DNA of 64,000 bases from Actinernus sp. WN-2022 (Eukaryota; Cnidaria; Anthozoa; Actiniaria; Actinernidae): NCBI GenBank assembly GCA_030867875.1, contig JAOWCC010000091.1:1301464-1365463 (forward strand), written 5' to 3'. A program made the position numbers and the translations under genes. Positions 4,447 through 62,697 of this stretch are shown in pieces; the first letter of the stretch is position 1; each line of letters starts with the position of its first letter. Under the pieces are notes generated by a model. The model worked only from the letters and a program-made list of their open reading frames with translations, was not told the origin of the DNA and ran no database searches.

Positions 4447-4499
4447 AAGTCTTCGCTAAAAGCCGCCATTTTTTTTTCAAGAAGATCAGACTGATATAT

Positions 4500-4570
4500 C
4501 ACATGGGACTGGTACGGGCTTCTGACCAATCAGAAACGGCGTTAGAATTCAAATCAGTGCTAGCCAATCA
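4500..4570 (-). promoter_or_regulatory. Possible CCAAT-type promoter of the helicase gene
   Basis: Two CCAATCAG motifs (CCAAT at 4526-4530 and 4564-4568) lie 80-120 bases upstream of the helicase ATG. Such boxes bind NF-Y in animals. No TATA box is evident. Confidence 0.3.
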
Positions 4571-5785: not shown

Positions 5786-5947
5786 TTTTCAGAATTTTAG
5801 GTCACTTTTGGTAGAGAAAAACTTATCTTTGGTCAAACAAACAACAACTTCCCTCCAAACAAATCTTGTTGAATGAATGAATGAATGAAGCCATGCGCCG
5901 CCGCTGAGACACAGCTCAGACAGCGGGAAACCCCCGGCAGTGAAGAA

Positions 5948-30092: not shown

Positions 30093-30128
30093 AGTAGTTT
30101 ATGACTGTGTTGAGAAAGCTAGTTTAAA

Positions 30129-31610: not shown

Positions 31611-31693
31611 CAATAAGATGGGTAACAATGAAGATTTTATAGTTTGTAATATATATTTCAAGAAATATGTTTATTAATACACATATACATGTT

Positions 31694-32061
31694 AGAGTGA
31701 TTTTCATAAACCCATTACAGCGCGACGCGCCGTACCGTGGCCACCCAATTAATCATCTGGACTTTGTTTTGAATGCAAAATGTCATATATTTGTACTTAG
31801 TAATTAGTCACAAGAGCTTTGACCTTTGTTTTAGCTAAACAAGGAGCTTGTTCTCAGAGCTCAGCAACTTTACATGCATGCTAACTTGTAAAAAAAAATT
31901 AATTGGGTGGCCACGGTACGGCGCGTCACGCTGTAAATAGATATTAAACTAATACACATTAGTAGATCTTAATTCCATTGTTTTCTTTTGTTGTCATTTG
32001 ACTATTACACATTACATGTAACTATTAGTATTTATTTTACGGGTTTATGAAAACCACTCTA
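31694..32061. repeat. Outer MITE with TAGAGTG(A/G)TTTTCATAAACCC ends
   Basis: The left arm TAGAGTGATTTTCATAAACC and right arm GGGTTTATGAAAACCACTCT then A are inverted copies. It lies in the gap between the two convergent ISL2EU genes and contains the next MITE. Confidence 0.7.
31718..31933. repeat. Inner MITE, 216 bp, TA-flanked
   Basis: 35-base terminal inverted repeats beginning CAGCG(C/T)GACGCGCCG with one mismatch, flanked by TA on each side (31716-31717, 31934-31935). It is nested inside the outer MITE, giving the insertion order ISL2EU, then outer MITE, then inner MITE. Confidence 0.85.
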
Positions 32062-32319
32062 CTATGGAAATTAGACAAATACATGTTGTTGTCTTCTAAG
32101 TCAAAATATTCAATGTCTTCCATTAGATTCCAATAAACCTGGGCACTACTAATTAGGTGTACTTGTAGTTATTAGTTTTTATTTAATTATAAGGTTCACT
32201 CATTCATGTATGTTAAATATTGGAAACAATAAATTATTTAAATATAATAGTGATGTTAGCATTTACTTGTTTAATTATGTACATTGTATCTACAGTGAAT
32301 GAAATATTTCAAATATGAA

Positions 32320-33870
32320 TTATGATGATCTTGGAAATACAAGGTCTTTATTCCATCTTGTTTCACCATGCAAAATCCTAGGATAAACTAGCTCTGGAAA
32401 CATATGTTCAAAATAAAACTGCTCAAGTTTGGGCAATCTTTCATTCCAAAAAGTAATGTCAAACAAAATATGATCAGTATGCATTTCAATGCCATTTGAT
32501 ACAAGAAAATGGCATACATTTAAGTTACAACAAAAAAGCTGATGTTGAATCTGATGATAGTATTTATGAGTCTTATTGATTACAAGTTCCTCTCCATTTT
32601 TCTTATAAATTCCTTGTCTGCACATGGCATCTTTTAAGACTTCTCCTTCTTTTAATACAATCTTCTTGACTTCCACAAGATGGTTTTCTTCAGTAATGCC
32701 ATCAGGCGATGCTCCTAGGAAAGGATGGGTTGCAGATAACATAAAGCCTGATTTCTTTACTTGATGACCTGTCTCATTTTCGAATTTCTTCAAAATAATC
32801 GGTTCCCATTCAATGCCTTCCTTCATAGCCTTTGTCTGGACATATGAATTGTATGATAAGACCTCTGCTACAGCTTTCGTTGGACTAGTGGTAGACTTGA
32901 GTAAGCATCTCTTGCATTTAGAAGCTGTTATTCGTGGTTGGCGCACATTGTACCACACCCTAGTTTTATGCTGTTCAATTGTTGCATTTGTAATTGCATC
33001 AATATCATTAACTGAGTCAAATAACCTTTGCTTAGCTCTGAATGCCTTATTAGCAATGTCATCCAAAGAAAGGGGGCAGTTTTTCACTGGAGAAATAATC
33101 TCCCATTTTGCATTCTGATCCTCTTCAATGATTTCATTTGTTTCTTGTACAGGAGATTGTTGAGGGAGTCTGTGGGGAATAATAAAACTAAGTCCAATTT
33201 GTTTTCCATTTTGTGTCTCTAGATGTTTCAACCTCTTGAATATTTCTCCAAGGTCCTGATCTTGACTTCTTTGGTGCGGGGCTCTGACATCATGTTCAAT
33301 ATCATTTGAAGTTTTGGGATCTGCTTTGCGTTTCCCCCCAAACATGTTTTTCAAAATTCACAGTCTGAATAGGTTTTGGTTGTGATAGTCTTTCCCGAGG
33401 CACACTCCATGTACACGGTTTCGAAGTGCAAGGTACATATTTACCATTCGCCTTGTCTTTATCAATTTGCCCAAACATATCTTCAATGGCAAACAATGAG
33501 GCTGCTAAATGGTTGCATCGACCATCAATCCCAGCTGGACATGGACAGTAAGCCTTGTTGATATTTGAATTGGCTTTGATAATGATCTTCACTGCATACA
33601 ACGAACCAGACTTTGCATACGAAGGCATCACTTGGCTCTTGACATAAAACAAACCGTTTTCACTTTTGCTGTAAACTCCTTTGACCTTTCCAGATTTGTA
33701 GAAGTTATAGCCTTTGACTATTGGCTTTTCAACGGAAAGTTGCTTTTTAATTTCAACGTCTTCAATTAAGTAATTCCATATTTGAGCATATCCCACTTTG
33801 GGCAAGTCAGAAATCCCTATACGAAACCCATCGGTGGGAAATGCTTCATCAGTCCAAGGGCTTATCTCAT
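32320..33870 (-). pseudogene. YqaJ-type exonuclease with SWIM zinc domain (ISL2EU partner), frameshifted
   Basis: Opens after a GTCTTCAG acceptor near 33873 at DEISPWTDEAFPTDG. A SWIM zinc motif (C-x-C-x(n)-C-x-H) is seen as YCPCPAGIDGRCNHL. The YqaJ/lambda-exonuclease-like fold follows: [19 protein letters not shown] (Glu), [10 protein letters not shown] (Asp), LVEVKK (E-x-K) and [10 protein letters not shown] (Gln), ending at 32320. The frame changes once near 33340, in a G6 run (reading VWGETQ... becomes FGGKRKADP...). YqaJ-type proteins of ISL2EU elements are thought to aid transposition or repair. Its first exons are at 36435-36076. The N-terminal codons from 34000 to 33875 include an Asn run encoded by a (TTA)n microsatellite and are probably not part of the gene. 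Confidence 0.8.
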
Positions 33871-43368: not shown

Positions 43369-44365
43369 TTACAGTCCAATATTCTTAGGCACTATTAGCC
43401 GTGCCTCAATTTTGTCACACACATAGCCGTCCTTGGCTGACTCAGATTTCCACCTGCCGTGGATTTTAAATAATCTGTCTGGTATGTTTAGATTCGCTGC
43501 TGCTGTAGCCCCTCCAGACCTAAAACTGTGGTTACTAAAACCAGAAGAATTTACTCCAACAGATACCAGATTAGCTTTAAGTATCTCTCTAGATCTGTTG
43601 GCGCTAAGAACTTTTGTAGAAAGAACGTTTCTTTTGCCTTGTTTGTCATATCTTACTGATCTAAATATGAAATCTTGTGAATTGTTAGGTATCTCTGCAG
43701 CACTCAAGTATTTAAGGAGAAAGGTATATGGGCATGTATCATTGCCCGTTTTGGCAATATAAACCCACGAACCTTCTCTGTATTTGTCTGTTTTGCTAAC
43801 TTCTACAAGGATCTTGTGGTACTCATCTTGGGTTACAATATTATTCCTCCTAATATTCAATAATTCAGAAATGCGGAAAAACCTCGCGTAAGAAAGTAAA
43901 CACATATTATACATATGAATCTAATGTCTACTAAGTTACTACTATCCCCATAACGCTAACAGAGTATCCTTAGAACCTCAGGGGTTATTGGTTCAGCTTT
44001 CTTAACAGCTTTACAATTAATACGGTTTGAAGCCTCTACGACTGATTTTACAAGAAACTTATTGCAAGCATTTCTATCCTCGAATCCTGCCAACTTATGT
44101 ATCCAATTTATTGCATAATACATGTTGTGTATGGTTGCCTTAGCCTTATTTTCTTCAAACATTGATTTAAGATACATAGCAACTGTAGTAGGTGTAGCGG
44201 GAAGGAAAGCATTTCTCATATTACTGAATTTACACCAATATTTGAACTTACAAAAGTTTCTACAGTAAGACAAAACAGTATTATCTGCTCTAGAATTTAA
44301 GGCAAGGAACCACAACTTCTGATCCGTCTGACAGTTTCCTTCCTGGTATGCAGCTGAAGTGATAT
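43369..44365 (-). pseudogene. DIRS-like tyrosine recombinase, broken
   Basis: Begins after a TTGATCAG acceptor-like site near 44366. The core-binding half reads WFLALNSRADNTVLSYCRNF through AINWIHKLAGF. The catalytic half has FFRISELLNIRR (first Arg), NHSFRSGGATAAANL (H-x-x-R), HGRW, and KDGYV with the candidate Tyr. It ends at 43369. Damage: TAG in frame near 43953 and a frameshift near 43912. Such enzymes integrate circular DNA copies in DIRS/Ngaro/PAT retroelements. It lies downstream of the RT gene, same strand, as expected for this class. Confidence 0.8.
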
Positions 44366-45032
44366 CTGATCAAAAATATAATAAGAATATATTAATAATA
44401 AATATAACTTTAACCATACCTAAACCAAAACAAATGTAATTGTATAGAGATTATATCGGTTGTCGATGTACTCTATCCTTTCTTTTCGAACGAAAGGCGG
44501 CCCAAACAGGTGTCGCCAATATCAACCTAGATAACTGATATAAATCTGAGTACCCAAGTGGGATTTTTTGTTGTTATTGTTGTTGTTGTTGTTGTTGTTG
44601 TTATTGAACTTCAATCTTGATGACAGCCCAAGTGGGACTTTACAGATAAAACAATAATGACCAGGTGGTCCCAGTAAATGCATACAAATAATATAATTAA
44701 TTAATTACAGAAACTAAGTAGTTTCTTCGATTTACTCAACAAGCTAGGATCCAGGTGAATCCGATATGACTTGTGTCAACTAACACCAAGTGGTTTACAT
44801 GCCAGGTAGCTCAGGTTTAAAAGATCAAATGATCTCGCTAAGTCGTACATGTATATAAGTACCAAAGTAGTAATATTTACATATTCCAGTCAGGTTCCAA
44901 GTGGACCCTGGTTAATGCGTATCAATATAACCTAGATAACGTCCAGGTGGGCGCTTGATCTGAAACATCCAACTAAGGACCGCAAACCATGATCATGCAA
45001 CTTAATGCAAGATAATTGTCCTCCGATGCGCG
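44366..45032. other. RT-recombinase spacer with (TTG)n and AAGTGG-type motifs
   Basis: A 667-base non-coding gap between RT-RNase H and the recombinase. It holds a (TTG)n run at about 44571-44603 and seven scattered copies of (C)CAAGTGG or CCAGGTGG, plus AACCTAGATAAC twice (near 44525 and 44928). DIRS-type elements usually have adjacent or overlapping genes here, so the spacer is unusual. Confidence 0.5.
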
Positions 45033-47027
45033 TCAATCAGTTATACTATTAAACCTTAGGAAAAGGACACCGGAGCGAAATTCAGGTGAACCAAACAAAG
45101 ATTTCTTGTTATGGCCAAATTCAAACACCTCTGTACCACACGGGATTTCACATATATCAGTAAATATGCACGATAACCCTCTATCTGTGTACACCATAGG
45201 CCAGAATACGGCAGAAGGCCATTTTGGTACCATAAGGGTACCTCTACACCCTGTGGCAACGACGTAATTAATAACTCTAGGGATGAGGAAAATAGGCGGG
45301 ACTACCCAATTATTTTCATTCGCCCAAGAAACAGAAAACGCGTCTACTACTTCAGTGCCCGGGCACCAAAACCTGCTGTTGAAGCGAGGTAATTGTGTAT
45401 TTTCATGATTAGCGAATCTATCCACAGAATGTGGACCCCACCTGTCCTCAATCACACAGAAGTATCTCGATCTAACTCGCCAGTCGTCGTAATCTACGAT
45501 TCTGCTCAAAAAATTTGCTCTTTCATTAAGTGATCTAGGGATCCATTCCACCTGGAGTCTGATATTATGCTGTACACATATGTTGAAAATACGAAGCGCG
45601 ATGCACTGCAAGTCTTCCTTCATGCTACCTACTTCGACTATTCTCGAAACGCTTTGATTGTCGTTATGCCATATAATCGTCTGACCTTTCAACATACTAA
45701 TGAAGGACTCCATACCGAGGGAGATGGCATAAAGTTCTCTGTAAGAAGAGCTACGTTGAGCTTCCGTGTCGCTCCACATCTTATGAGCAATTGCGTTATG
45801 AAATTCTAAGATGTAGCTTGCACAACCGGTAGAGCTCGCGTCAGAGTAACATATTCTAGAATAAACAAATTGCTGCTTAAGCATGCGTTTACTGTTCAAC
45901 AACAAAAGATTGTTTTTCCAGAAAGTTAACTCTATTAGAGTAGAGCTCGATAATTCAATCCTCGTATCCCACGAAAATCTTCTCAAAATATCGAAATGAG
46001 AATATCTGGTCATAATACGAGTAATATTACCAAGTACAAAACCCATGGAAATAACTTTTCCTACGAATTGTGCCACTTTTCTGGCTGTACTGAAAGAATG
46101 CAAAAGAATATTATCAATAATCTGTTGAGTACTGTGAATTCTATCTGCGGGAATAGCAATAACATGAGTAGACAAATCTATCATGTATCCCAACCACTCA
46201 AATTTGGTTGTAGGCTGCCAGACCGACTTCTTATCATTAGGAAGAAAACCCGACAATTTCAGAACCTTCTCGACATAATTAGACGACGTCTCGCAACTTG
46301 CCCAATCTCTGGCTGAACCGAGACCATCATCGAGATACACTGTAATTCTGACAGAATTCTTTCTCCAATATTTAACTAATTCACGGACCACTTTCGTGAA
46401 AATAAATGGAGCAGACGAAAGACCAAATGGAAGAACTGTAAAAACAAAGAATTTACATACTCCGTTGAAACACCAAGAAAATCCAAGAAAAGATTGATGT
46501 TCTACCATTATATCGATATGATGGTAGCCGGACTTAAGATCAAATTTAAACATGAAGTTATCATACGGAAGATAATTATTGGCTACTCTTATATCTTCAA
46601 ACTTGATCTTTTGCTTCCATATGTGGAAGTTAACATGTCTTAGATCGAGAATCAACCTCTTCTTGCCTGACGTTTGTTCCGATACAGATAATGGGTTGAT
46701 CACGATCGGAGGGATTACAACTTCTATAACACAGCCTGATTGAACAAGTTCTAATATAGATTCAGTTACAAATTCAGAATGCTTGTTTGCCGAATTATTG
46801 TTCTTAAATCTAGCAGGTTGTGGCGTGTTAATGAACGGAATAACATAACCTTTATCAATAGTATTGATAATGAAGTTACTATAGCTGTAAGCGTATCCTT
46901 CCAAAACTTGATGTTTTCTGAGCCTGCCTTTAACTGTAAAGGCACTAAGGCCTGTAGGATTAGTATCCAAACTGCCCTCAAACTCGAAATCTCTCATTAA
47001 CGTACTGATAATACTGGTTACCTTCAA
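45033..47027 (-). CDS. DIRS/Ngaro-type reverse transcriptase-RNase H
   Basis: 664 codons, intact. Fingers/palm motifs: KKRLILDLRHVNFHI, FKFDLKSGYHHIDI, LPFGLSSAPFIFTKV, and the active-site box YLDDGLGSA (residues 231-239). Connection/thumb region: FEWLGYMIDL. RNase H: CYSDASSTGCASYI (Asp 396), SSYRELYAI (Glu), WHNDNQS (Asp). It ends with a lineage-specific tail. The layout matches DIRS-group RTs, which make circular or rolled copies inserted by a tyrosine recombinase rather than a DDE integrase. The gag end lies immediately upstream in another frame. Intact while its recombinase is broken. Confidence 0.9.
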   Translation of the reverse strand: MKVTSIISTLMRDFEFEGSLDTNPTGLSAFTVKGRLRKHQVLEGYAYSYSNFIINTIDKGYVIPFINTPQPARFKNNNSANKHSEFVTESILELVQSGCVIEVVIPPIVINPLSVSEQTSGKKRLILDLRHVNFHIWKQKIKFEDIRVANNYLPYDNFMFKFDLKSGYHHIDIMVEHQSFLGFSWCFNGVCKFFVFTVLPFGLSSAPFIFTKVVRELVKYWRKNSVRITVYLDDGLGSARDWASCETSSNYVEKVLKLSGFLPNDKKSVWQPTTKFEWLGYMIDLSTHVIAIPADRIHSTQQIIDNILLHSFSTARKVAQFVGKVISMGFVLGNITRIMTRYSHFDILRRFSWDTRIELSSSTLIELTFWKNNLLLLNSKRMLKQQFVYSRICYSDASSTGCASYILEFHNAIAHKMWSDTEAQRSSSYRELYAISLGMESFISMLKGQTIIWHNDNQSVSRIVEVGSMKEDLQCIALRIFNICVQHNIRLQVEWIPRSLNERANFLSRIVDYDDWRVRSRYFCVIEDRWGPHSVDRFANHENTQLPRFNSRFWCPGTEVVDAFSVSWANENNWVVPPIFLIPRVINYVVATGCRGTLMVPKWPSAVFWPMVYTDRGLSCIFTDICEIPCGTEVFEFGHNKKSLFGSPEFRSGVLFLRFNSITD

Positions 47028-47330
47028 TGATTTCTCTTACTACTTTATTCTGGGCGATGAATTCAGTGCTGCCCACTTGTACCGCTGGTCTTGTTTGTAT
47101 AATCCCTGTAGTTACTGTACGTGTAGGACGGTCCTGGTGAGAAGTAAGCACTGGAGTTTGGGCAGTTGTTCCTCCAATGACCGGTCTTGCCACAGGCGAA
47201 ACAGACGTCGTTCTGGCTTTTACCAAAAACTTTTCTCGTTGTTGACGGACGAAAATTATTGAAATTTCCCGGTGAAATAGAAGAGACAGCAGTAAAACCA
47301 GTAGGGGGCGTTTGTCTTCTTACAATCTAT
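47028..47330 (-). pseudogene. Gag C-terminus with CCHC zinc knuckle (DIRS-like), partial
   Basis: Minus-strand frame RRQTPPTGFTAVSSISPGNF to the retroviral-type knuckle CFACGKTGHWRNNC (C-x2-C-x4-H-x4-C), then SSAYFSPGPSYTYSNYRDY. It opens after a TTTCCATAG acceptor-like site at about 47331, and nothing gag-like is visible further upstream, so the element appears 5'-truncated or the exon's partner is missing. Confidence 0.65.
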
Positions 47331-48187: not shown

Positions 48188-48193
48188 CATACC
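48188..48193. other. Target-site duplication CATACC, left
   Basis: CATACC directly before the left end; an identical copy follows the right end at 61346-61351. A related uninterrupted site, GGCACATACCTATATGG, is present at 36827-36842. Confidence 0.8.
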
Positions 48194-48672
48194 TATGAAG
48201 GGTGAACAGGGTCAAAAATGTCATTACATGGTTATACGTTTTATTGGGCCGTGTTGACGTTCTATTGGGTCGTGTGTCGTTTTATTGGGTCGTGTCGATG
48301 TTTCATTGGGTCGTGTTGTCATTTTATTGGGCCGTATTGACGTTTCATTGGGTCGTGTTGTCATTTTATTGGGCCGTATTGACGTTTTATTGGGTCGTGT
48401 TGTCAATTTATTGGGTCGTGATGTCGTTTTATTGGGTCGTGTGACCATTGTCATTTTATTGGGTCGTGTGGACGTTTCATTGCGTCGTGTTGTCATTTTA
48501 TTGGGCCGTATTGACGTTTTATTGGGTCGTGACGTCGTTTTATCCGATCGTGTCATTGTTTTATTGGATCGTGATGTTGTCTTATTTCATCGGATTGCCG
48601 TTGTTGTTTTATCGGGCTATGCGCCTTCACAACGTGTTACCTGCGGTCTCACCCATTAGTACCCAGGGCCTC
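48194..48672 (+). repeat. Left TIR made of ~21-bp ATTGGGTCGTGTTGTCATTTT units
   Basis: After a 45-base unique lead, about 15 units with a ~21-base period, each with ATTGG (inverted CCAAT; 14 exact) and, on the minus strand, AATAAA. The last part (48540-48672) is unique. The transposase ATG is 43 bases past its inner edge. Confidence 0.9.
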
Positions 48673-49542
48673 ATGTCCAAGGCGATCGACGCTAACCTAT
48701 TATTATAAACCATCATGGAAGCGCTGCGAGTGTACGGCAAAAGGTTTCTTCTTGATTTGGTGTCACAGTTGGAGAGGAACAGCGTTGTGCAGGATCAATT
48801 AGATAGTGTAAAATTTCGCCTGGATTGGTTTTTGGGTGTTTTGAGTCGATATGCTCAAGCCACACCAGATGTTGACCTTCCAGTAAACTCTCTTATCGAG
48901 AAGCTCGAGCGTGCACAAACCATCATGCTACAGCTCGATGAGGACATTTGTTCCGGTTACAGACCAGATAAAGTATATTCTGGATGCAAAGGAAGACCAA
49001 GTTTTGACATTCCTAAAGACCAACTTGAGATGCTTTTAGAATACAGCTTTTCAGTTCCCCAGATCGCTGAAATGCTTGGGGTTAGCCTCAGTACAATCAA
49101 GCGAAGATTTCGAGATTATGATCTTTCGATTTCTCAGACCTACTCCACTATTGGCGACAGTGAACTCGATGAAATAATGCAGCAGTTAGTAACTGAATTT
49201 CCGAATTGTGGTTACAGAAGGATGACTGGTTTGTTGCGTGGAAGAGGGATACATGTACAACAATTCCGTTTAAGAGAGTCCAAGCGAAGATCTGATCCCG
49301 AAGGAGTCCTGTTGCGTGCTTTGCAGTTGACACCAGTTTCCAGGAGGGTATACATATGGACGGTCACCACAAGCTGATTAGGTATGTCGGTAATGTTTAT
49401 GTGCTTTGTTTTATTTGTTGCTATTGCATGTACTGTAGATGCACTCATCCCTCTCCCTCCCTTTATATATGGTTTTCCCTTTATATATAATTATACCATG
49501 GTAGCCTCGGATTCTTTTGTTCTCCGAGGCACATTTAAACCA

Positions 49543-49663
49543 CTAATTTTCCCTGATGCAGGGATATTTAGAAATATGCATTGTTTCGAAATTTCCCGCC
49601 GGGAAATTTCGAGACAATGCATATTTCTAAATTTCCCCTGCATGCGTAATGAGGGAAAATTAG
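49543..49663. repeat. Hairpin MITE in transposase intron
   Basis: CTAATTTTCCCT...GGGAAAATTAG arms; inner arms AGAAATATGCATTGT and its inverse meet at CCCGCCGGG. A small GCCTCGG/CCGAGGC hairpin lies just upstream. Confidence 0.75.
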
Positions 49664-50146
49664 AAGAGAATGCAGGCTGGAAGTGAGAAGGTCAAAAGCA
49701 TCAACTCCTGCTCCCCTCTGGTAACACTAGCCCTGCGCTCCCGGATGAAAAATACTGAATCCAAACTGACCTGTCTTCATCATAACCTTCAATGTAATCC
49801 ATGTGGGATGACCTATTTCAATCTGCATATTCTTCTCTTAATTTCTCAAACCCGCTTCTTCCATGTGGGATACTTAAAACCATAAACGTGACGTAATTAA
49901 AATCCATTCATGTTCTTTGAATATTTAGTCAACCGCATAATTACATTGTATTTTAGTGTTATTCTTCTAAAAAACAACACGCTTTTCCCCAGGGGAAGCC
50001 AGGGTCGTTTAATCAATGGCGCTCAGTCAAGCATTAAACAAAACGTTTTCGAAAGCAACTCGACTGCGACGTCTTTAGTTTCGGCAGAGAAAACTAAACT
50101 TCTCAGAGATTTGTTCCGTTCCTCGGCGATCATGGTATAACAAACT

Positions 50147-50293
50147 TATACCATGGCATTTCGGGGTATTAGTGATTTAAATTGCCCCGAGAGCCGCGGG
50201 AAGATTTGTAAAAGCGGCCGAGGGACTTTTACAAATCTTCCCACGGCTCTCGGGGCAATTTAAATCACTAATACCCCGAAATGCCATGGTATA
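50147..50293. repeat. 147-bp near-perfect palindrome (fold-back MITE)
   Basis: TATACCATGGCATTTCGGGG...CCCCGAAATGCCATGGTATA with ~68-base arms nearly identical throughout and a ~15-base centre. AACTT flanks on both sides are compatible with a 5-bp duplication. Very young by arm identity. Confidence 0.85.
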
Positions 50294-52037
50294 ACTTATA
50301 AATATACATGTATTAAAGCTATAGTATACGAATATGTGCCACCCCCAAAGGCTATGGCACGGGAATGTTTTACCTTGTTGGTATGAATTATCTTAGTGCA
50401 TGTGATCTTAAAAACATGTACATGCATGTATGGTCCAGATTTTGGATTTATGGTCTGGAAAAGGGAACATTTGTACCCCCTACAATATCTGTCAATAAAA
50501 AACGTACCCCCTCTTCATCATCATTGTCATTGTTCAAGTTATGCTCAGTAGGTCAAATCAAAAGTCACCGTGTTGCATGAAAACATAAAACTGTACCCCC
50601 CATATTTAGAAATTACAAAAAATTTCCCCCCCAATTTCAACTGATTTTGGGAATTGTACCTCCCTGCAAATCCACCCTAGGTTGACCCAGTTCAGAGTTC
50701 ATTTGACTATTCTGTGTTCGACTCCCGCTTGCACTGAAAGCGATCGAGGTAAAGGCGACCCAACAAAACAGGCCATGTTTGACTTGATGTAGCTTGAACA
50801 TCAGACTTACTGCTCCAAAATAATTAACACTTTCCTCAAGCTTTGACAAATCATACTTACAAACTTTTTAAACATCATTGCATTGGATTGGTTTGAAAGG
50901 CAAGTAACTTAATACCAATCTTGGGCAAAACAGAAACCATGATTGTACGTATAGTTACCAGTTTCCCTGACCGAGATAATTTATGCAGAAAGGTTAACTA
51001 AAACAGACATGTATTATACACAAATCTCGATTTCTTTTGCCTGTGAAAGCACAGGTAGCCCACACATGACTACAGGGAGTCCAACTCAAGATTAGTATGC
51101 ATTTTCCTTCATCGAACGCAAGGTGTTACCTTATTCACAGAGATTTGGTACATTGTACTTCAATTGGACAGTGAATCTAAGTTTTATTTTCTCATACATG
51201 TAGATGGAAGTTCGTGATTCATGGTTGCATCGATGGCTATTCTAGAAAGATAATGTTTCTCAAGTGCAACACAAACAACAAGGCTCAAACTGTGCTCTGT
51301 GCCTTCTTAGAAGCTGTAGGTGAGCATGGATTACCATCAAGAGTTAGAGGAGACCATGGTGGTGAAAATGTTGATGTTGCCAAATACATGTTAAACCATC
51401 CAGAGAGGGGACCAGACAGAGGCTCATTTATTACTGGAAAAAGTGTGCATAATCAGCGCATAGAGCGACTTTGGGTTGATGTTTATGTTTGCTGTGTGTA
51501 CACATTCTATTGTGTATTTGATTTCCTTGAAAATGAAGGCTACCTTGACATAGACAATGATCTACAGATGTTTTGCCTGCATTTTGTCTTTGCCCCAAGA
51601 ATCAATGACTGCTTGGAACAGTTCATGAGTGGTTGGGATAATCACCCTATTGGAAGTGCTGGAAATAGGACTCCCAACCAACTCTGGATAAGTGGACTAT
51701 TTGGTATTGCAAATGGTGAAGGAGCTATTACTAAAGAGGTCTGGCTAAATTTAGATGAAGTGAGTATAGCTTTCATAAATTAAATTATTTCTAAAGCCTC
51801 CCCCCCCAAAAAAAATATTTTTTTGACTTAATAGCCTCCTGGGAAGTAGTAGAGTGAGGAAATAGAATACATCCATATCTCCTATGTGTGTCACAGCATT
51901 TTTACAGGTTAGGCTATTTTTAGATTTATTTTCCCAGCCAATTGGTGTAATGCACCGGTGGCAGAACAAAATGCTTGTGTTATATCAAATAATATGGCTA
52001 CTATATATGTTTTTGTGATTTTATTCCCGTAGGAATA

Positions 52038-52177
52038 ATTGAAGGGCTGTGTGCAAAAAGGGCATTAGTGATTCTTGATCACATTCTAAATTCTCCCTTA
52101 GAAAACAAAGAAATTGAAGGAGAATTTAGAATGTGATCAAGAATCACTAATGCCCTTTTTGCACACGGCCCTTCAAT
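52038..52177. repeat. 140-bp palindromic MITE, copy 1 (ATTGAAGGGC ends)
   Basis: The arms ATTGAAGGGCTGTGTGCAAA...TTTGCACACGGCCCTTCAAT are almost perfect inverses over ~58 bases. It lies in transposase intron 2. A decayed relative is at 56884-57024. Confidence 0.85.
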
Positions 52178-52739
52178 TGCAACTCATGAATAGCAGGAAA
52201 CCGGCCTAACTTGTGAAAATGCTGTTACATAGGTCTACAAATGTACCATGTGGGATGAACACTCTGGTTATGAGCTCTTGTCATTATAACGTTTTCTTCA
52301 AGGTTACAAGCACCTCCTATCCATCTATTTTTAAATTTTAACAGAGTGAACAAGAAAATTATGGGAGAGACTGTGAAGGGATGTTGCCAGAATCAACTGA
52401 AACAACTGTAATTGACATACCAAATGTGATGTGCCCATTGAGTGATACATCACTAACTGAACTGAGAACAACTATCAACCCAAAGCTTCCAAGTGCCAAT
52501 CGGGGCATTGATATATACTTAGAAACCATTGCCTTTGTCAGAGAACATGTGATGTAGATATTTCATAATCACTATTGCAGCCGAGTGATAGGGACCTTCA
52601 ACATACATTGTATTTTTCGTGCCCTGCTTCCCCTAACCCGTTGGCATTTACACACAGTACTTTGTTTATGTTCAGTTCAACTTGATAATGCAGCTACATG
52701 TACATGTATGAGATGCATTGACCAATCCCCAGCTTTTCA

Positions 52740-53728
52740 TTAAAGTGCATACTGTATGAATTAATTTATTTTATTAAATTTAAGTCTTCCCAGGGTCATT
52801 TTGTGCAATTAAAAATAAAATTCACAAGCGCAAACATGATTTTTTGTTGTCAAAGTCAGGAATATCATGCAACAATTTTTATTCTGTTAAAGATATGCTA
52901 ATCACATGCGTGACGTCAGTTGATTTGCACATTTATATTCATAAAAGTAAAAATATGGCTGATGGCAAGGCCACTCTAGTAAGACAGTTATTATGAAAAT
53001 TAGGCAAATAAAGCTGCACTGTATGTTATAGTATTTACGGAGAAGAATATTGATGTGCAAATCAACTGACGTCACGCATGTGATCAACATATCCAACGGC
53101 ACAAAAAAATGGCATTTCCCAAGACACAGTTGACTGCTTACCAAAGCCTTGGTTTGACTACTTGGTTTGTCTGTTGAGCGGGAGGTCGTGGGTTCAAACC
53201 CCGGTTGGACTAACACTCATGGTCTTAAAATAACTGAGTAGAAGGTGCTGCCTTTGTGAAACAACTGCAAATGGTTAGACCTTCACGTCTTCTCAGATAA
53301 GGACGTAAAATCGTAGGACTAGCGTCCCCAATTAGTTGCAAAGCTAAATACATTTGACACTTAAATAAAGTTACTTACTTACTTACATATTTTCAAGTCA
53401 TTTACTTTAACCACACATTTATTGGACAAGTAATGTATGGTTACTAATCAGTACACAATAGAGCATGGTAGGATTGCTAATTACACAATATATTCTCAAC
53501 TCATGGAGTCTATTTTCAGCACATGAAAATTTGTTTACACCTCCCTGGTCAACAGAGGCTTTGATAAGTACAGGCCAGGTTCAGTGAGCAGTCAACCATA
53601 TCTTGGGAAAGGCATATTGTCGCACGATATTCCTGAATTTGACACGAAAAAGAATCTTGTTTGCACTCTCCAATTTTATTTTTAATCAGGGAAGACTTAA
53701 ATATAAAAATAATTCATATACACTTTAA
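52740..53728. repeat. ~990-bp non-autonomous element with long imperfect TIRs
   Basis: The left end TTAAAGTGCATACTGTATGA...TTTAAGTCTTCCC and the right end inverted (TTAAAGTGTATATGAATTAT...TTTAAGTCTTCCC) continue through a shared TCAGGAATATC(A/G)TGC block. An inner inverted pair CATGCGTGACGTCAGTTGAT/ATCAACTGACGTCACGCATG lies at about 52906 and 53055. A half copy is at 16.44 kb. It contains a SINE. Confidence 0.65.
53115..53395 (+). repeat. tRNA-derived SINE with (ACTT)n tail
   Basis: A B-box-like GGTTCAAACCCC at 53191-53202 inside GTCGTGGGTTCAAACCCCGG, an unrelated body, and a 3' end TAAATAAAGTTACTTACTTA. The A box is weak. The layout (Pol III B box, body, short tandem tail) is that of a tRNA-derived SINE. 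Confidence 0.55.
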
Positions 53729-54225
53729 AGACAATAAAAAAAGATTGAATTCCAGTTCTGGACACCACTGGGCAACTACAATCAATTAACAACTTAAAAT
53801 TGCTTTATTATAACATACAGATTATTACAAACATCATGCCATATAAGTATAAAAATGTTGCCCAACCAAATATTTTTCATCATCTGGAGACCAACAATTT
53901 TTATACGTGTACATACCTTTCAGGTTTTCTAATGTGATGGGTGTCAAACATCTGACAGTAACTGGGTGGCTAATTTGATATTCTATAACATAGTTTAATG
54001 CAACTGATTGCCCACAACGATATTGTAAAGTATCAGATAATGGTGAAGTTGCTATACTGTAGTTGAAATATCAAGCAAACTATAATTATTAATATTTGCG
54101 AATGTGTAAATTAAAAAAACTTTAACTCCAATGGTTGCATCAGTCTTGTGCTGAAAGTGAAGGACTCCACTTTCATTACCATAACCAACCTGATTTCATT
54201 GAAACAATCTGTAAAACGCAACCTC

Positions 54226-54440
54226 TAAAGGGACACTGTCAACCAAAGCAATGCGAATTTCTCCCTTGACCAAACTATGCTTTCTGGTTATACTGGAGAA
54301 ATTCCAAGAAAGGAAGGACGAAATTTACGTTGACATATGCAAGGTGTTTCTATTCAATTGAAGGGCTGGGTGCTATTTTTTTGTATTTTCATTTTAATGC
54401 AGTGTGAAGGTTCAGTATGACTGACAGTACCCCTTCAATA
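54226..54440. repeat. MITE with AAAGGGACACTGTC ends
   Basis: The left end AAAGGGACACTGTCAACC is matched at the right by GACTGACAGTACCCCTTCAA in inverse orientation. It lies downstream of the HECT gene stop codon. Confidence 0.45.
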
Positions 54441-54541
54441 AGGGTCTTCATTTGTCAGTGTAAATGAATGCTTCATATGTAAATGAGTGCTTAATTGCTG
54501 GGGTGCCAAGTTACTCAGTTAATTGATCAAAAACTGATAGA

Positions 54542-57500
54542 CTACACTATCATAAAACCCTGGCCTTCAACTTCAATTGCTTTGTTGAACATGTTTTTGA
54601 AGCTTTCATATGATGTATGGCAAGTTGGCAAGTGAAGCATCCCAGTACAGGTATTGACTTTGGGGAAGACTGCCCTGGGGTCTCTATGAAAACCCACTGC
54701 AATTGACTTGGTAGATCTTGTTACATGAGGTGAGGCCGTACAGAACATCAAAAACTTTGGCGTACAACAAGTAGTGTCACCTGTAGCAAAACAAAACATG
54801 ATACTAGTAAGTAAATAACTTAGCTTTGATGTTTTGGAAAAAAAAATGGGGGAAAAAATCATGGGTTCTTGTTCCTGGAACAAGTGAAATTTAGAGGGCT
54901 GTACTATTGTCAGTTATTAATGCAGTATTACCTGGGAGGGTATTCTTCTCTTCACAATCATTTATATAGTCTTGAAGGAAACCATATGCTCTATGCTTAT
55001 TTGGTTCCAGTGGCTGAGGCTCATCATCTTCAAGAACTAACATATCAAGAACAACTGCTTTTGGTATCATGACATCACTCTCTGTAGGGAATACCAATGG
55101 AGAAACACAAGGGTGGCTTTTGATAAGTTCTGTTAATGACAAGGTTTTCATCCCCTTTATGATGTCATCTATTTCGTACTTTCTCTTTAGAATAACATGG
55201 TGTAGTAGGATCTGTTGCACAGCCTTGTCTTTGTTCTTGGCTTGCAGTTTTGGGACACCAGCTTGGTCTAACGTATCTAGCAACAAACTGTCGTTCTTCC
55301 ACAATTTGGTGAGTTCATCATCGGGTGAAGCGATTATTCTACCAACTTGTTCTTGAATCTCTACATCGGGTATGTCTTCAGTTGTGATACTAGCAGCAGC
55401 TATGTCCAAATCTTCTGTCTCAATATATTTGACAATTCCCCGACACATTCCAACAAAGCCACTCCCACCATGTATTAGAGAATGTGCAATTAACTTTCCA
55501 ACCAGGAAATAATTACCATCCTCAAGTATATCCCAGTCATGAACAGGTACGAGGTGATTAACTTGCCCCGTAAATAGCCTACAACTGTTTTCTATTTCCT
55601 GGGTGCAAGAATTCAAGGCAAGGAAAAAGAACTCACGACTTGGTCCACCAGCATCACTGCCCAGTTCATGGATACCATGGCCTTTAAACACCACATTTGG
55701 GACTGCTTTTAATTTGTTCTTGTCCATTCTTTTGTAGATCAACCTTACTTGTTTGAACATGCTTTCCTCACGATTTACATATATTGTGTTTGTTGGGATT
55801 GTTAGATCAACAATGCTGTTTGCATAATCGTTGAACATCTTCTCACGTTCACAGCTGGAATTACATGTTGATGGTTCTATTGATGTTGATATTTCTAATG
55901 AGAATGAAAAGGGAAAATCGTTAACCAAAGGAAAGCCTTGCTATATTGTAATTTCTGCATGTCTCTGAGTGTGTATATATGTAGCCTGCTATGCAGACAT
56001 ATTTTTTCACTCAGAAATTCGAAGAAAAAGTAATGTCTGCTTACCCGAGCGCTTAATTAGTTTCCAATATGCACACCTCATTGTGTTATGGTAGTTAAGC
56101 GACTGAAACTCTGTAGGCCATGCAAGAAATCTTAAAGTGTGAAATCTTCAAGTGTGAAATCTTCAAGTGTGAAAATCTAAGTACTTAAACAACCAGCCGT
56201 TCTTTGAGAATTGCACTATAGCATGACTGAGTGATTTTTTGATGAGTGAAATGCTAATGTACATTCAAATCTGAAAATTCAATATGGCTCGAATGGAAGA
56301 CTAAAAAAAACACAATTAAGTAGACTGAAACTAAAAGAACTGTTTGGCCTGTACTGAAACAACATGTTCTTGAGGTTTACTTTAAAGTGCCAGTAGCGCC
56401 ATAAAACAACATGAACTCTTTTTGCCCCAAATTATATTCTTAGTTGTTTAACTTACTTTTCTTTGAGAGGCAGGAGCAGAAATTAAACTAGAATAAATGC
56501 TACCCGAATTGCGGGATTGATTCATCTTGTGATGTCACAAAGAAAACCTACATGATTCTATTGTAGTAGTTTTCTCTAGGAAGGGATTTGATTCATCTTA
56601 TGACGTCACAGGATCCATGAAAAGTAATATTACGAAATTTGCAAGATTAATACCTTTTTGTGAGAAACAAACACAATAGTACAATATAAAAAAGTCTCAT
56701 TACTGACAGATATTTCTGTGATGAGTTTTTTTAAATTGCCCCTTATTGCACACATCTCAATTCAGTTAAGAACCTTATGAAAAACACTGTTTGGAAGAAC
56801 AAGCATTGATTGCCACTGCAACTTATTTAGTAGTAATATTTGGTGTTGTTGATGTTGGTTGATGTTGAAATTGCTGTAATAATAACTGAAGGGCTGTGTG
56901 CAAAAAGGGTGTAAGTGACTCTTGATCACATTCTAAATTTTCCCATAGAAAACAAAGCAATCAAAGGAGAATTTACAATTTGATCAGGAGATACTTATGC
57001 CCTTTTTGCACACAACCCTTCAATTATTTTCAATGTCATGAAGGAAATGACAAGTACTCATGATAAATTTAACTTTTCATTCATACCTTTCTTTTGGTTT
57101 TGCTCCTCACAAACAGCATTGACAGCTTCATTGCTGTCTAGAGCATCTCCTGCAGCACGTTTTAAGTGGGCTTCATCAATGTCAGGAAACATGTTCTTCA
57201 AAACGTTTAAGATATCCTCCTAAAATCAAGATTGCATGATTTTATTAATTAATACTCCAAATAAATCCTACTAAAATGCACACTTGGCTCATTTACAACA
57301 GGACTGCTGAAACCACTTCCATTGATAAGGTGAACATATTCCACTGGAAAATGAAAATAATGCATTAACTTTGTCAACTTATTTTTGACATTTATCCAGG
57401 CACACAATTTATTCATTCCCATATAAGACTTGGATGCCAGAACTAATCAAACGAATTTGCATCACCACTTGAGCACATTGAAATACTATTGTGCAACACA

Positions 57501-60500
57501 CTGATTGGTGCAAATTGTAACAGCGTGACAAAACATGATTTGTAAAAGCTTGATAGTCGATAGATTTTTACACAAACAAATATCACTCTGTAACATAAGT
57601 AATCAAACATGATGCTGAAACAAGAGGAGTATTCAACATAGAAAACAAGTTTAGTGTGTACATGACAAGAATTATAGTTAATTATGTACCTCGGTTTCAT
57701 AAGTGCAAGCAAGAGGGGATCTGACATTAATATTGTCAGCTGCAGTTGGTCCTTCTGCACCTATCACCTTCCAATAAAAAAACACCATTTAGTAGCGATT
57801 CTAACACAAATGATAATAAAATGATAGTGCTAACGAATTTTGAAGGCATCAATATTGATAATGTCAGTGGAAGTGTTATTTGTTGACAATAACTGTGCAA
57901 AGTAGCAATTTACACCTGCATATCTAAGTATTTTATTATTTGTTTGCCACAGTGTACAATAAAATAAACAGTATAATTTGTGGGGGGGGGGGGGGGGGAC
58001 AGTGACGAGGAAGCCTAAACGAGAAACCGTAAGGCTTATGGAAGTTCAGGCTTTCCCTTACATACGAGATTACAAATAATTAAATAAACATTACAGGAGA
58101 TGGCGGTTACATATATTAAAGCTAAGATAGACAAGGGAGCTCTGTACATACATTACAGCAAGAGAGTATATAGACAAGGAAGCTGTATTCTAGATGGCAG
58201 TAATTCAGTTGTCAATATGACGTTAATAAGAATATTTTAAAGTTCGATTTAAAGTTTTTTAAGCTAGAAGAATTTGTCAACTCATCGTTTAATGAGTTCC
58301 AAAGTTGCGGGCCTTGATATTTAATGCAAAATTGTTTGAGTCTAGTTCTACAAAAGTGGGAACGAAGTCTAGAAGCATTTCTGGTATTATAATTATGTAA
58401 TTGTTTGCCGGAAGTAAACAGACCATTGAAACTAGAAGGAAGTCAATGATTAGAATAAGAGTACATAAAAATGCCAGTTTGCAGTGAATTGATTTCAAAG
58501 ACTTTCAATATCTCTAATTGTTTAAAAATAGGACCTGAGGGAGCATCAAAATGTGTGTTTTCTATTGTCCTTACAACACGTTTTTTGTAGGAGCAGTAGT
58601 CTACGAAGATTAGTTGGGTAGGCTGAAGCCCAAACTATATTACAGTAATGCAAATATGGATAGATTAAAGAGTAGTATAGTGAAAGCAATGATTTGCTAG
58701 GTAAATAAATATCAGACAACAACAAAAATTTCCCATGAAGTACATGGATTCCTGCAATAACTTTCTTGTTGATTAATTTCAAGAGTTACACATACATCAT
58801 ATGAGCCTGGGACTAAAAGTCTATACCTCATTTCCACTAGTCAGATCAATAAGAGAATGGCTAGCTTTATGAACGAATTCTGATGTTGAACCACAGTCCT
58901 AGGACCAATAAAAAAAACAATATTTTATCTTGTGAAATTAAACCTGTTGTACTACTGCCTAAGTGTGTGATTTTCTAGCTCTAAATACCAGTGTTTTGCA
59001 TATCCCATTTCATTATGATCATATTGCTAAAAATCACACTGCATACATCCAAATGTTATAAGTGCTTTCTACGGACTCAATTGCACTGGCATAAATACCT
59101 TTACTGCAGAAGCTCTGCACTCCTTTTCTCTGTGGTTCTTTAGGTGACCATAATTCACTTTTTGACAACAAGTTATACACTCAACAGTAGGACCACCCTC
59201 AAGTTCAAACTGTGGTGTGTGGAAAATAAATAAATAATCACAAAAGAAAGAAAAGCATATACATGTACTGTCTTCATTACATGAATTCAGTGTACAAGTA
59301 AACAAAAAATGTATGAACTAGTATATTAATTATGTTTTCAAATAATTTGCATCTTAGAAAAACAATGCTAGCAAGGTATACATGTATAGATAAATGTATA
59401 AGTTATCAGGGGTTTCATTATTTATTGAGGGCTAGATAGTGTAAGATACATGTAAGGGGCAGGTATATTAAAATTCCAGTGTGCTTATATTAGTTTTATA
59501 TCATATTTTACCATCATAGCCAGTGCTTGCCACTTATAATGAAACCCCTGGCACATACATACATAACTACACTGTACATACATGTACACAGACCATTCTC
59601 ACATTATGATCTCTGAGTCAGCTAATTTGATGTCTATATCAATTTCAAAGCTGCCCCTCCATATGTGGGGCATTTTACAACTCAGTCCTCGTGGTTGGGC
59701 AGGTTTGGAGAGAGACTTTATACTCACCCCTTATAGGAAACCCACTAATTGGTATGAATTCATTACCACCAACTTTGGCCAGACTAATAAAAAATAAACA
59801 ATTTACAGGAAACACAGATTCAGGGGGTCATCCCATTTGTAAGTTACTTACAGAACACACCCCCACATCATTTTGCTTGTAATAAGAAAAAAAGTAATTT
59901 CTACTTGTACAAAATTTAGATGTAATTATAGACAAAAACCAAGTTGACTCACTTCATAGGATTGTGGGCTGAGGTCTAAGTCTTGTTGCAGGGGTCTTGC
60001 ATAGGTCACTGCTTGCCCAACACAGACAGTGCATCTGAGATAACGTATGGTATACCTAACCCTCTGGGCCAGGTGGGATGGTTGCAAGTTGCCTTTGTCC
60101 TCCACCACCTCCAACAGCATAGAGCAGCTCAACACCACCACCATCTTTCAGCTTGGGGCATTCATTTTCTAGCGCTTCGATGAACTGTTCATGTTTGAAA
60201 TACAACCTTCTTCCTCCCCAAGCCACTTTTTTGGAGATCCATTAACTGTTCCTTTGTTGGCGTGGTATCGTCCTTTACTCCACCAAGAATACAGAAATTA
60301 TGGGTCCAACTTTCTTTAGGTTTGAAATAAGGCGTGTATCTCCTTGATGCTTTTCCTTTTCCCTTCGTTTTCTCAGGTTCGGGATGGCGTGTTTGACTTC
60401 TGCCGGACGGGAAGGCACGCCTTTTAAGATTTTTAAAATACAAAAATTATCTAAGTAACATTTAAGTAAAATAACCTTAAGTAAAAATAACCTTCAATAA

Positions 60501-60777
60501 AAAGAATGTTACCTGAAGTTTTCGTTCGCTCTGATCTGAAAATCACTGCCGGCTTTCCTACAAGTATATCCAGAACTAGAGCCAACTCCAGTAGAGGAAC
60601 TAGAGCCAGTAGAGGCACTGCCATTATTGGCATTGCTACTGCCAGGGAAGCTAAACTTGAAATTCCCCTTGAAACTTCTTCAGATGATTGTAGACGATCA
60701 AGGTCATCAATCGCCGACTTCATAATAGCCGTCAAGTTACTGATAAGGCCCTTGCCGTCTTTCTCCTTTCCTTCCAT
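54542..60777 (-). CDS. HECT E3 ubiquitin ligase with zinc and CUE-like segments, carried by the transposon
   Basis: Eight exons read on the minus strand with matching GT/AG borders: 60777-60513, 60420-59953, 59209-59099, 58898-58827, 57767-57690, 57219-57087, 55894-54932, 54780-54542. Order: Ser/Gly-rich start; RRAFPSGRSQTRHPEPEKT; KLKDGGGVELL with YARPLQQDLDL; zinc-like CITCC...H-x3-C; CUE-like VLKNMFPDIDEAHLKRA (ubiquitin binding); HECT N-lobe (GHGIHELGSDAGGPSREFF); C-lobe with the catalytic cysteine in KVNTCTGMLHLP. HECT ligases take ubiquitin from an E2 onto this Cys before passing it to a target. The catalytic exons are intact; exons 1-2 show three 1-base shifts (about 60655, 60200, 60060). 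Related to fish/cnidarian G2E3-like genes. It starts about 110 bases from the right TIR. Confidence 0.75.
56884..57024. repeat. MITE copy 2 (ATTGAAGGGC family), decayed
   Basis: CTGAAGGGCTGTGTGCAAAA...TTTTTGCACACAACCCTTCA; the same family as 52038-52177 but with several mismatches between arms. In a HECT-gene intron. Confidence 0.75.
57982..57998. repeat. G17 homopolymer
   Basis: Seventeen consecutive G on the plus strand in a HECT-gene intron; likely length-unstable and error-prone in sequencing. Confidence 0.9.
58010..58790 (-). mobile_element. LINE 3' fragment in HECT-gene intron
   Basis: Minus-strand RT C-terminal region: LYYSLIYPYLHYCNIVWASA, then, after a frameshift, FDAPSGPIFKQLEILKVFE, HNYNTRNASRLRSHF and IKYQGPQLWNSLNDEL. 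Typical CR1/Jockey-like end. 5'-truncated. Confidence 0.75.
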
Positions 60778-60883
60778 TGCTACGGCAAGCAAAAACTGAG
60801 GAAGACACCTTAGACTTAGTAGCAAAGGCGCCCGGCCCAGCAAATATATTTCCCGCAAAATGGCGGGGAAATGATTACTTAGC

Positions 60884-61345
60884 CGTGAGACCCTGGGTGA
60901 CTAATGGGTGACACCGCAGGTAACACGTTGTGAAGGCGCATAGCCCGATAAAACAACAACGGCAATCCGATGAAATAAGACAACATCGCGATCCAATAAA
61001 ACAATGACACGATCGGATAAAACAACGTCACGACCCAATAAAACGTCAATACGGCCCAATAAAATGACAACACGACGCAATGAAACGTCCACACGACCCA
61101 ATAAAATGACAATGGTCACACGACCCAATAAAACGACATCACGACCCAATAAAATGACAACACGACCCAATAAAACGTCAATACGGCCCAATAAAATGAC
61201 AACACGACCCAATGAAACGTCAATACGGCCCAATAAAATGACAACACGACCCAATGAAACATCGACACGACCCAATAAAACGACACACGACCCAATAAAA
61301 CGTATAATCATGTAATGACATTTTTGACCCTGTTCACCCTTCATA
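60884..61345 (-). repeat. Right TIR of the 13-kb element
   Basis: Inverse of the left TIR with roughly 98% identity by eye, one ~21-bp unit fewer. On the plus strand each unit reads CGACCCAATAAAACG, giving 13 CCAAT boxes and repeated AATAAA pointing outward. Confidence 0.9.
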
Positions 61346-62697
61346 CATACCCATATACTTTAATCACTTTATTCTGATTCAGGCCCGTAGCCAGGATTTT
61401 TTTTTGTGTGTGGGGGGGTTCTCAGTACATTTTTGGTAACAGCTACCTCATTCTAAAATTCCTGGATCGATGATGGTTATTGGCTGAAAAATGTCATTGG
61501 CCGGGGGACCCAGGGCATGACAGCAAGCAGCGGATGCATTTTGTGGGGGGAGAGAAAGGGGAAAGAGAAGAGGGGAAAAGACGCCCTGGGCACCTGGGGC
61601 CAATCAGTGAGCTAGTTTGGGAACCATTACTACCAGCTTTTTACAGAGCAGATGCCCAAGGTGTCATTTCCCATCTTCCCTTTCCCTCCAAGTACCCCCA
61701 TTCCTGCTGCTCGACACAACACCCTGGGTCGCCCCACCATTCAAAGAGCTGACCACCAATCAGAGAGACCTTCCACAATATTTTATAGTTTCCAGAAAAA
61801 ATACCAAAGTTTGATATTATCATAAAAAGAAATTTAAGATTGGAGTCAGAAAATTCTGTTCTGAAATTGCTCAAAACAGAAATGGGTAAGTCGAACAAAT
61901 TATCTGCTCCCACATTTGGAAATTCTGAATGGGGTAGGAAAGGTTTTCAAGATAAAAAAAAATTGCTTTGCATGCGAAACCAGGCTCAGGGTGTCTCATT
62001 TGTGATGGTAGAACAAGGATAATTAGTTTCATAGGGTATCTAGAAATAGAAAGTAAAAATATGCAATTTGTGGTATGCCTAGAATGGTAGTGGATGAAAA
62101 AAACAATCCTATTGTTGAGAGGGGGTGCAGATATATTTTGGAATTGTGCAAATTTTATAAAATGCCATAAACTGTCCCTTTTAATTTTGTGGGACCTATA
62201 TGTCTGCTTACTAACAATGAAATGTTTCCCCCTTTCAATCCCACAATATTATGCAAAATCCAATATGGCGGCTTACTGGCAGTGAAATCTGACCCCCTTT
62301 CAATCAATATAACATAAAAGCAATATAAAAAGCTGTTTGTTTACCTTCTGACAGCATTGTATTGACTGAATGGTATGTTTCTTTTTAAAGAAACAAATTA
62401 AAATGTGTTTACATAAAACAGGAGTTTAGGGTTATTAAGACAGAATTTATGATGTTTCCACTTTCCATTCTGAATTTTCTAAGTCATCACCAAAAAGGCT
62501 TGAGCGTCAATTCTTTGTAAGAAAAAGAACTCTTTATTGATGTGCCATTATAGCCTGATATTGATTATGAGAACTCACGAGAAAGCCAATGCTGATTTTG
62601 AAACAATTTTCAATTTGTTACAAAAGGCTTTATGTATAAGTGATATTGTTTTGGATGATTTACTTGAGGGTCATACATACATCCTATTATTATCCAC
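61346..62697. other. No gene seen
   Basis: 61,346-61,351 is the right CATACC duplication. The rest is repeat-like (GGCCCGTAGCCAGGATTTTT near 61,382; G- and A-rich runs). Frames at 61480-61752 lack any motif and look like repeat by-products. Confidence 0.4.

Follow-up and report, generated by a model that had tools for sequence, protein, structure and literature searches.

A 13-kb IS3EU-like DNA transposon with a HECT-like gene tail to tail with its transposase in a cnidarian genome

DNA transposons of the IS3EU/GingerRoot kind are described as having TA..TA termini, usually 6-bp target-site duplications, and a DDE transposase that is related to those of IS3 and IS481 and lacks an HHCC domain (PMC10045372). 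IS3EU elements with extra genes are already known in fungi, where TET+ elements combine oppositely oriented transposase and alpha-kinase genes with 6-bp duplications and the ends TAYGG..CCRTA (PMC12730594). Styx, an active IS3EU-related element of 7,927 bp with 6-bp duplications and four ORFs, moves by a probably non-replicative route (PMC10853768).

Here, we describe a DNA transposon of 13,152 bp at positions 48194-61345 of a 64-kb window of a cnidarian genome (the window being the whole stretch of DNA that was analysed). This element shares with IS3EU/GingerRoot the TA..TA termini, the 6-bp duplication, the transposase kinship and the lack of an HHCC domain, and differs in that it carries a HECT gene, a word that does not occur in the main text of that description (PMC10045372). 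With the fungal TET+ elements it has in common the IS3EU framework with extra genes, opposite gene orientations and 6-bp duplications; their cargo, however, is a TET/JBP dioxygenase and an alpha-kinase, and the main text of that report likewise has no occurrence of 'hect' (PMC12730594). Styx resembles the window element as a large IS3EU-related transposon with 6-bp duplications and differs by its 36-bp terminal inverted repeats (TIRs), its putative GATA and CCHC DNA-binding motifs and a domain of unknown function (PMC10853768). Our search of the literature, as distinct from Repbase, on HECT or ubiquitin together with IS3EU or DNA transposons found, among the titles listed, no report of a HECT gene in IS3EU, and such a gene may already sit unremarked in Repbase. 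The notable point here is the recurrence of the HECT partner. Taken as a whole, the explanation that we hold with considerable confidence is that of an IS3EU-kind DDE transposon with two tail-to-tail genes, in which the HECT gene is a gene of the family.

Ends, empty sites and the copy family

Read inwards, both ends of the element are TATGAAGGGTGAACAGGGTC, with 0 mismatches. At up to 3 mismatches, this 20-nt motif occurs at two sites in the window, each with 0 mismatches, and in 0 of 100 shuffles of the sequence. The element is flanked by CATACC on the left (48188-48193) and on the right (61346-61351). The flanks are identical at 6 bp and not at 4, 5, 7, 8 or 9 bp; a 6-bp match at the spacing of the element is found at 28 of 50,834 positions. 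Complementarity ends at the termini, with only 6 of 30 flank positions pairing beyond them.

The left TIR (48194-48681, plus strand) begins with TATGAAGG and the right TIR (60878-61345, minus strand) finishes with CCTTCATA. Over 480 and 460 nt, respectively, they align in 459 columns with 453 matches and 6 mismatches, interrupted by one gap of 21 nt, which equals one repeat unit, and another of 1 nt. The bulk of both TIRs consists of 21/42-bp tandem repeats, located at 48237-48586 on the plus strand (about 16 units) and at 60974-61303 on the minus strand, and the window outside the element contains a single 21-bp row of 2.1 copies. The precise ends, the 6-bp CATACC duplication and the almost identical TIRs of about 470 bp, all of which had been reported in an earlier note on this DNA, are thereby confirmed, with exact coordinates and a motif that is unique to the two termini within the window. 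A palindromic MITE-like repeat is present inside the element in two copies that are 85% identical (52023-52178 and 56870-57025).

The earlier note had also proposed a look for individuals that lack the insertion. Three sites without it were found within the same genome assembly (1.39 Gb, 1772 contigs). At these sites (on contigs C1161, C1304 and C635), the left and right flanks of the element adjoin with a 6-bp overlap, and alignments across the junctions contain CATACC once at each. The homology extends over about 2.3 kb, with identities of 96.8, 94.0 and 93.5%. The empty sites represent either diverged haplotypes or paralogous repeats rather than separate individuals; the flanks are themselves repeated sequence, as the genome contains three further matches that are partial and weaker, two of them to the left flank and the third to the right. 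Given that CATACC is present once at three homologous empty sites, the 13,152 bp were inserted as a single unit. Together with the duplications of other copies, this result upholds the view of a precisely bounded, IS3EU-like transposon inserted as a unit.

Those copies were obtained, along with their lengths, duplications and contents, by the genome search with the start of the TIR that the earlier note had suggested. The first 201 bases used as the query gave at least 89 matches (40 scored of 65 candidates), from which 16 stretches holding 15 elements were fetched for having two TIR matches that face each other. With the window element included, both end motifs were found in 15 of 16 elements, L049 having one, and the lengths range from 583 to 13,473 bp. 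The termini read TATGAA..TTCATA in 14 of the 15 two-ended elements (L042 ends in TTCATG), an agreement that arises partly by construction because the elements were found via the TIR. An exact 6-bp duplication flanks 12 of these 15 and was not found for L042, L045 and L048. These 12 elements represent 10 distinct insertions: L039, L040 and L041, on three contigs, have identical flanks with the duplication CATTTT and so count as one insertion, being haplotigs or segmental duplicates. TIR copies with other internal limits had been named as evidence against the proposed boundaries. The contents of the copies do differ, but the limits stand because 12 of the 15 two-ended elements have 6-bp duplications of their own.

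A second long copy, on contig C734, is 13,473 bp in length, is flanked by the duplication TTAGTC, and contains both the transposase and the HECT genes. The near-identity of the TIRs had previously been read as a sign of recent insertion. This dating logic does not hold. The TIRs of a DNA transposon, unlike LTRs, are not copied from a single template, and TIR-TIR identity by the BLAST measure is 93.7% for the window element and spreads from 76.4 to 95.8% among the 14 two-ended fetched elements, so that it is no measure of age and was ruled out as a clock. The inferred youth fares better: the window and C734 elements are 98.73% identical, with 134 substitutions in 10,579 aligned bases, and this divergence of 1.3% between the two 13-kb copies suggests that the element family is young.

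Transposase gene, damage to the long copies and classification

The transposase gene, on the plus strand, consists of three exons linked by GT-AG introns. Exon 1 (48715-49381), delineated by Pfam, protein alignment and the splice model, encodes the helix-turn-helix (HTH) region; exon 2 (51204-51759) encodes the integrase core (Pfam rva_4, E 4.7e-69); and exon 3 (52345-52557), from the splice model, encodes the C-terminus. Several Pfam HTH families match exon 1, all below their cut-offs, and Pfam detected no H2C2 zinc-finger family in this exon, consistent with the lack of an HHCC zinc domain ahead of the core. The spacing between D and E is 36, which is also the case in 68 of the 75 relatives where the pattern was found, out of 120 examined. 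Of 21 aligned transposase members, 20 are matched by the NCBIfam models for IS481 and IS3, with scores for the window protein far under the curated cut-offs; these matches and that to rva_4 bear out the earlier assignment to an IS3-type integrase. A PDB search with the transposase profile gave weak integrase matches (best E 0.0055).

A protein search returned 1783 transposase relatives, and all organism-bearing names among the 120 listed are those of animals. The closest named relative is Stylophora pistillata P0106, 71% identical over 30% of the transposase and grouped with it at a tree support of 1.0. This kinship points to a stony coral or one of its near relatives as the probable host. Animal-type rva_4 transposase relatives are also encoded on three contigs (L001, L002 and L003) of a sponge-symbiont MAG (Cycloclasticus), in which HECT was not matched at E 1 and the only inverted repeats were short; these contigs are probably sponge DNA in a bacterial bin. 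Among viral contigs, neither the transposase nor the HECT profile found a relative, and the exact TIR motif did not occur. Elsewhere in the window, the minus strand at 8436-9275 harbors what is left of another, distantly related transposase of this kind (at most 36.5% identity, E 2e-26), with profile matches at 8721-8930 and 8934-9131 and a frame that is interrupted by stop codons.

Among the family copies examined, a transposase match (E 1e-4) was obtained only in the window and C734 elements. Compared with C734, the window copy lacks 28 bp at about 49352, a deletion that was first deduced from the protein alignment and that disrupts the transposase frame immediately ahead of the first catalytic Asp. 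The C734 copy retains an open frame in transposase exon 1 across the first catalytic region and differs by 1 bp close to the start codon. Furthermore, frame breaks are present in HECT exons A and B of the window copy, exon B being open in C734 and in the 5,967-bp element on C1706, which contains HECT exons A-F and lacks G-H. The window copy is coding-defective and, with its own transposase broken, could move only if transposase were supplied from elsewhere. C734, for its part, lacks 853 bp that cover HECT exon C and most of exon D. Each of the 13-kb copies is thus damaged, though not at the same places, and an intact two-gene copy was not seen in the family.

The two long copies also differ by larger segments. 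A stretch of 811 bp (49486-50296) is found in the window and absent from C734; it takes in one pair of arms belonging to a palindromic repeat (50143-50297). Another of 795 bp (57917-58711, minus strand), absent from both C734 and C1706 in the copy alignment, is a 3' relic of a LINE, corresponding to the 3' portion of a LINE protein found in the window. Conversely, segments of 663 bp and 1,987 bp are specific to C734. The coding exons are less diverged between the long copies than the remainder (26/3591 vs 108/6988, p = 2e-4), from which we claim no selection because synonymous sites are low too. For HECT, pN is 0.0071 and pS 0.0067, which shows no sign of purifying selection in a comparison without power (10 substitutions).

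The TA..TA ends, the 6-bp duplication and the IS3/IS481-like transposase fit an IS3EU-kind DDE transposon, the assignment being made by the features of IS3EU as described rather than by Repbase reference sequences. Polinton/Maverick elements encode PolB, ATPase, protease and capsid proteins; within the scanned subset of the element's ORFs of at least 100 aa, there was no Pfam match to PolB, ATPase or capsid. Polintons likewise combine a 6-bp duplication with a related integrase, but Ginger1 and Ginger2 duplications are 4 or 4-5 bp (PMC10045372) compared with 6 bp here, and a transposase with an HTH and without an H2C2 zinc-finger match argues against both groups, so that a Polinton/Maverick or Ginger identity is very improbable. 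A negligible chance is left to the suggestion that the TIR arrays are independent satellite blocks with a fortuitous span between them. The predominance of 21/42-bp tandem repeats in the TIRs would suit such blocks; the ends, however, are exact and non-repetitive, many paired copies have duplications of their own, and the empty sites with a single CATACC refute independent blocks. The IS3EU assignment is therefore the one on which we build below.

The HECT-like gene and its recurrence beside transposases

The second gene occupies the minus strand and comprises eight exons. Exon A (60513-60777), the first, adjoins the TIR and is followed by exon B (59953-60420). Exon C (59099-59209) contains a CxxC..H..C zinc-finger-like motif that was recognized by eye and has no Pfam match, and exons D (58827-58898) and E (57690-57767) come from the splice model. 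Exon F (57087-57219) is CUE-like, its score of 21.0 bits falling just short of the 21.1 cut-off. Exon G (54932-55894) encodes most of the HECT domain, and exon H (54542-54780) the C-lobe with the presumed catalytic Cys, the position of which was assigned by eye. Exons C-H (59209 down to 54542) are joined via five GT-AG introns into one frame of 531 codons. The C-lobe passes the Pfam HECT model (30.1 bits, above the 23.9 cut-off), and the domain beyond it (the N-lobe) was recognized by hhalign only (97.7%, E 2.3e-12), against a 750-aa ORF on C806 that itself scores 50.6 bits with Pfam HECT. Judging by these sequence comparisons, the gene is predicted to encode a divergent HECT ubiquitin-ligase-like protein. 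The AlphaFold model of the HECT ORF, with a mean pLDDT of 37.6, is too poor for use, and PDB sequence searches with HECT returned only WD-40 and other non-HECT chains.

Protein searches, which depend on shared exact words, gave 7 relatives for the 349-aa HECT ORF and 3 for exons F-H, the closest named one being Stylophora pistillata P0003 (72% over 75% of the HECT ORF). A genome search in which 116 of 241 candidates were scored gave HECT matches at 111 places or more. Identity is 99-100% for the window and C734, 41-45% for two neighbouring pieces on C1312 and 23-40% for the other 107. Near-identical copies of the main HECT exon are thus two only, both within the 13-kb elements. The earlier note had mentioned a host-like regulatory gene, which we take to be this minus-strand HECT gene; its presence stands, whereas the few relatives and the two near-identical copies seen in these searches do not fit an ordinary conserved host gene.

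The peptide of the first HECT exon was detected in 13 of the 16 family elements and not in L045, L047 and L048; 9 of these 13 have a second, weaker match in the opposite orientation, towards the other end. Most shortened copies therefore descend from an element that carried HECT. A genome search with the transposase core yielded 150 scored places of 1118 candidates, and 29 of the 111 HECT places have one of these no more than 15 kb away. The expectation is 0.36 under uniform placement, which ignores repeat clustering, and some pairs are mutual duplicates (e.g. C235 and C1258). The arrangement is convergent, tail to tail, in 28 of the 29 pairs, at 26 distinct transposase places; this orientation bias is independent of the placement model. 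Window and C734 excepted, transposase identity at the paired places is 47-63%. No transposase was scored within 15 kb of the other 82 HECT places. Most shortened copies retain the first exon close to the TIR, and distant HECT and transposase genes form tail-to-tail pairs; the HECT gene therefore belongs to the element family rather than representing a single capture event.

Several of the distant loci differ in their modules. In L073, one of the 29 pairs, RING (PF13639, 1.1e-8) and HECT (1.1e-10) ORFs lie in the same frame with a stop codon between them, convergent with a 504-aa transposase ORF (rva_4, 1.5e-76); the 8-kb piece contains no TIR pair. L067, the locus of the C806 ORF, has a transposase fragment downstream in the same orientation (E 6e-18), a CUE-like stretch seen by eye only and weak zinc ribbons by Pfam. 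L066 (41% HECT) has no transposase within 9.9 kb. Arrays with a 21-bp period recur as well: L073 has 25 copies, of a unit unrelated to that of the window, beside the transposase start, and L071 and L072, which are near-identical and represent one lineage (66% transposase), have 14-15 copies of a third unit. L067 lends weak support because its array periods are mixed (11, 20, 21, 22, 41, 46 and others), and no 21-bp arrays were found in L070 and L066. We infer that the 21-bp arrays may be helically phased transposase binding sites.

Possible roles of the ligase-like gene

In a working copy, the transposase, with its HTH and integrase core encoded by three exons, would bind to the long TIRs at their 21-bp units and insert the TATG.. 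ends into the target with a 6-bp stagger, and the element would presumably move by cut-and-paste. The eight-exon HECT-like gene would contribute a putative ligase. The role that we consider most likely for it, with a shade less than an even chance, is the modification of a host factor involved in silencing, repair or restriction, from which the element would benefit.

Capture of host genes by DNA transposons is common, and the HECT gene could be a passenger of this sort, a captured host gene without a role in transposition. This would agree with the similarity of pN and pS between the two long copies and with the 82 HECT places that have no scored transposase nearby. We nevertheless consider it unlikely, given that the first HECT exon is present in 13 of 16 elements and that tail-to-tail pairs at 26 distinct transposase places are more than a single capture with random orientation would give. 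Alternatively, the ligase might regulate its own element by ubiquitinating the transposase or its complexes, limiting or resolving transposition. Convergent genes would allow separate control, and the front modules vary (CUE-like in the window, RING in L073, a weak zinc ribbon in L067) while HECT is constant; even so, we regard such self-regulation as a distinctly unlikely role.

Returning to the action on a host factor, a broader version can be put forward tentatively, at appreciably less than even probability. Cnidarian IS3EU elements would be two-component systems, in which a transposase that reads helically phased, lineage-specific 21-bp arrays is accompanied by a standing tail-to-tail HECT ligase that disables a host factor and whose front modules (CUE-like, RING or zinc ribbon) can be exchanged. 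If true, a lineage of eukaryotic transposons would possess a counter-defence of its own that is based on ubiquitin. The proposed role of the TET/JBP cargo of fungal IS3EU is escape from methylation-based silencing, and recurrent HECT genes beside diverged IS3EU transposases in one animal genome would point to ubiquitin as another lever of selfish DNA. A recurrent HECT partner would also account for part of the many divergent HECT-like genes of this genome, and arrays that keep the 21-bp period but not the sequence would provide a testable rule for end recognition by such transposases.

The window contains traces of other mobile elements outside the 13-kb transposon. ORFs with DUF6589, Helicase_C and QRICH1/DUF3504 lie in a single stretch at 584-5788, possibly a helicase-bearing mobile element. 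At 30123-33357, a THAP and DDE_Tnp_4 transposase ORF adjoins a YqaJ-like nuclease ORF, in an arrangement that presumably resembles an ISL2EU-type element. On the minus strand at 43369-47036, a reverse transcriptase ORF is located beside a tyrosine-recombinase ORF, a combination that we take to be DIRS-like.
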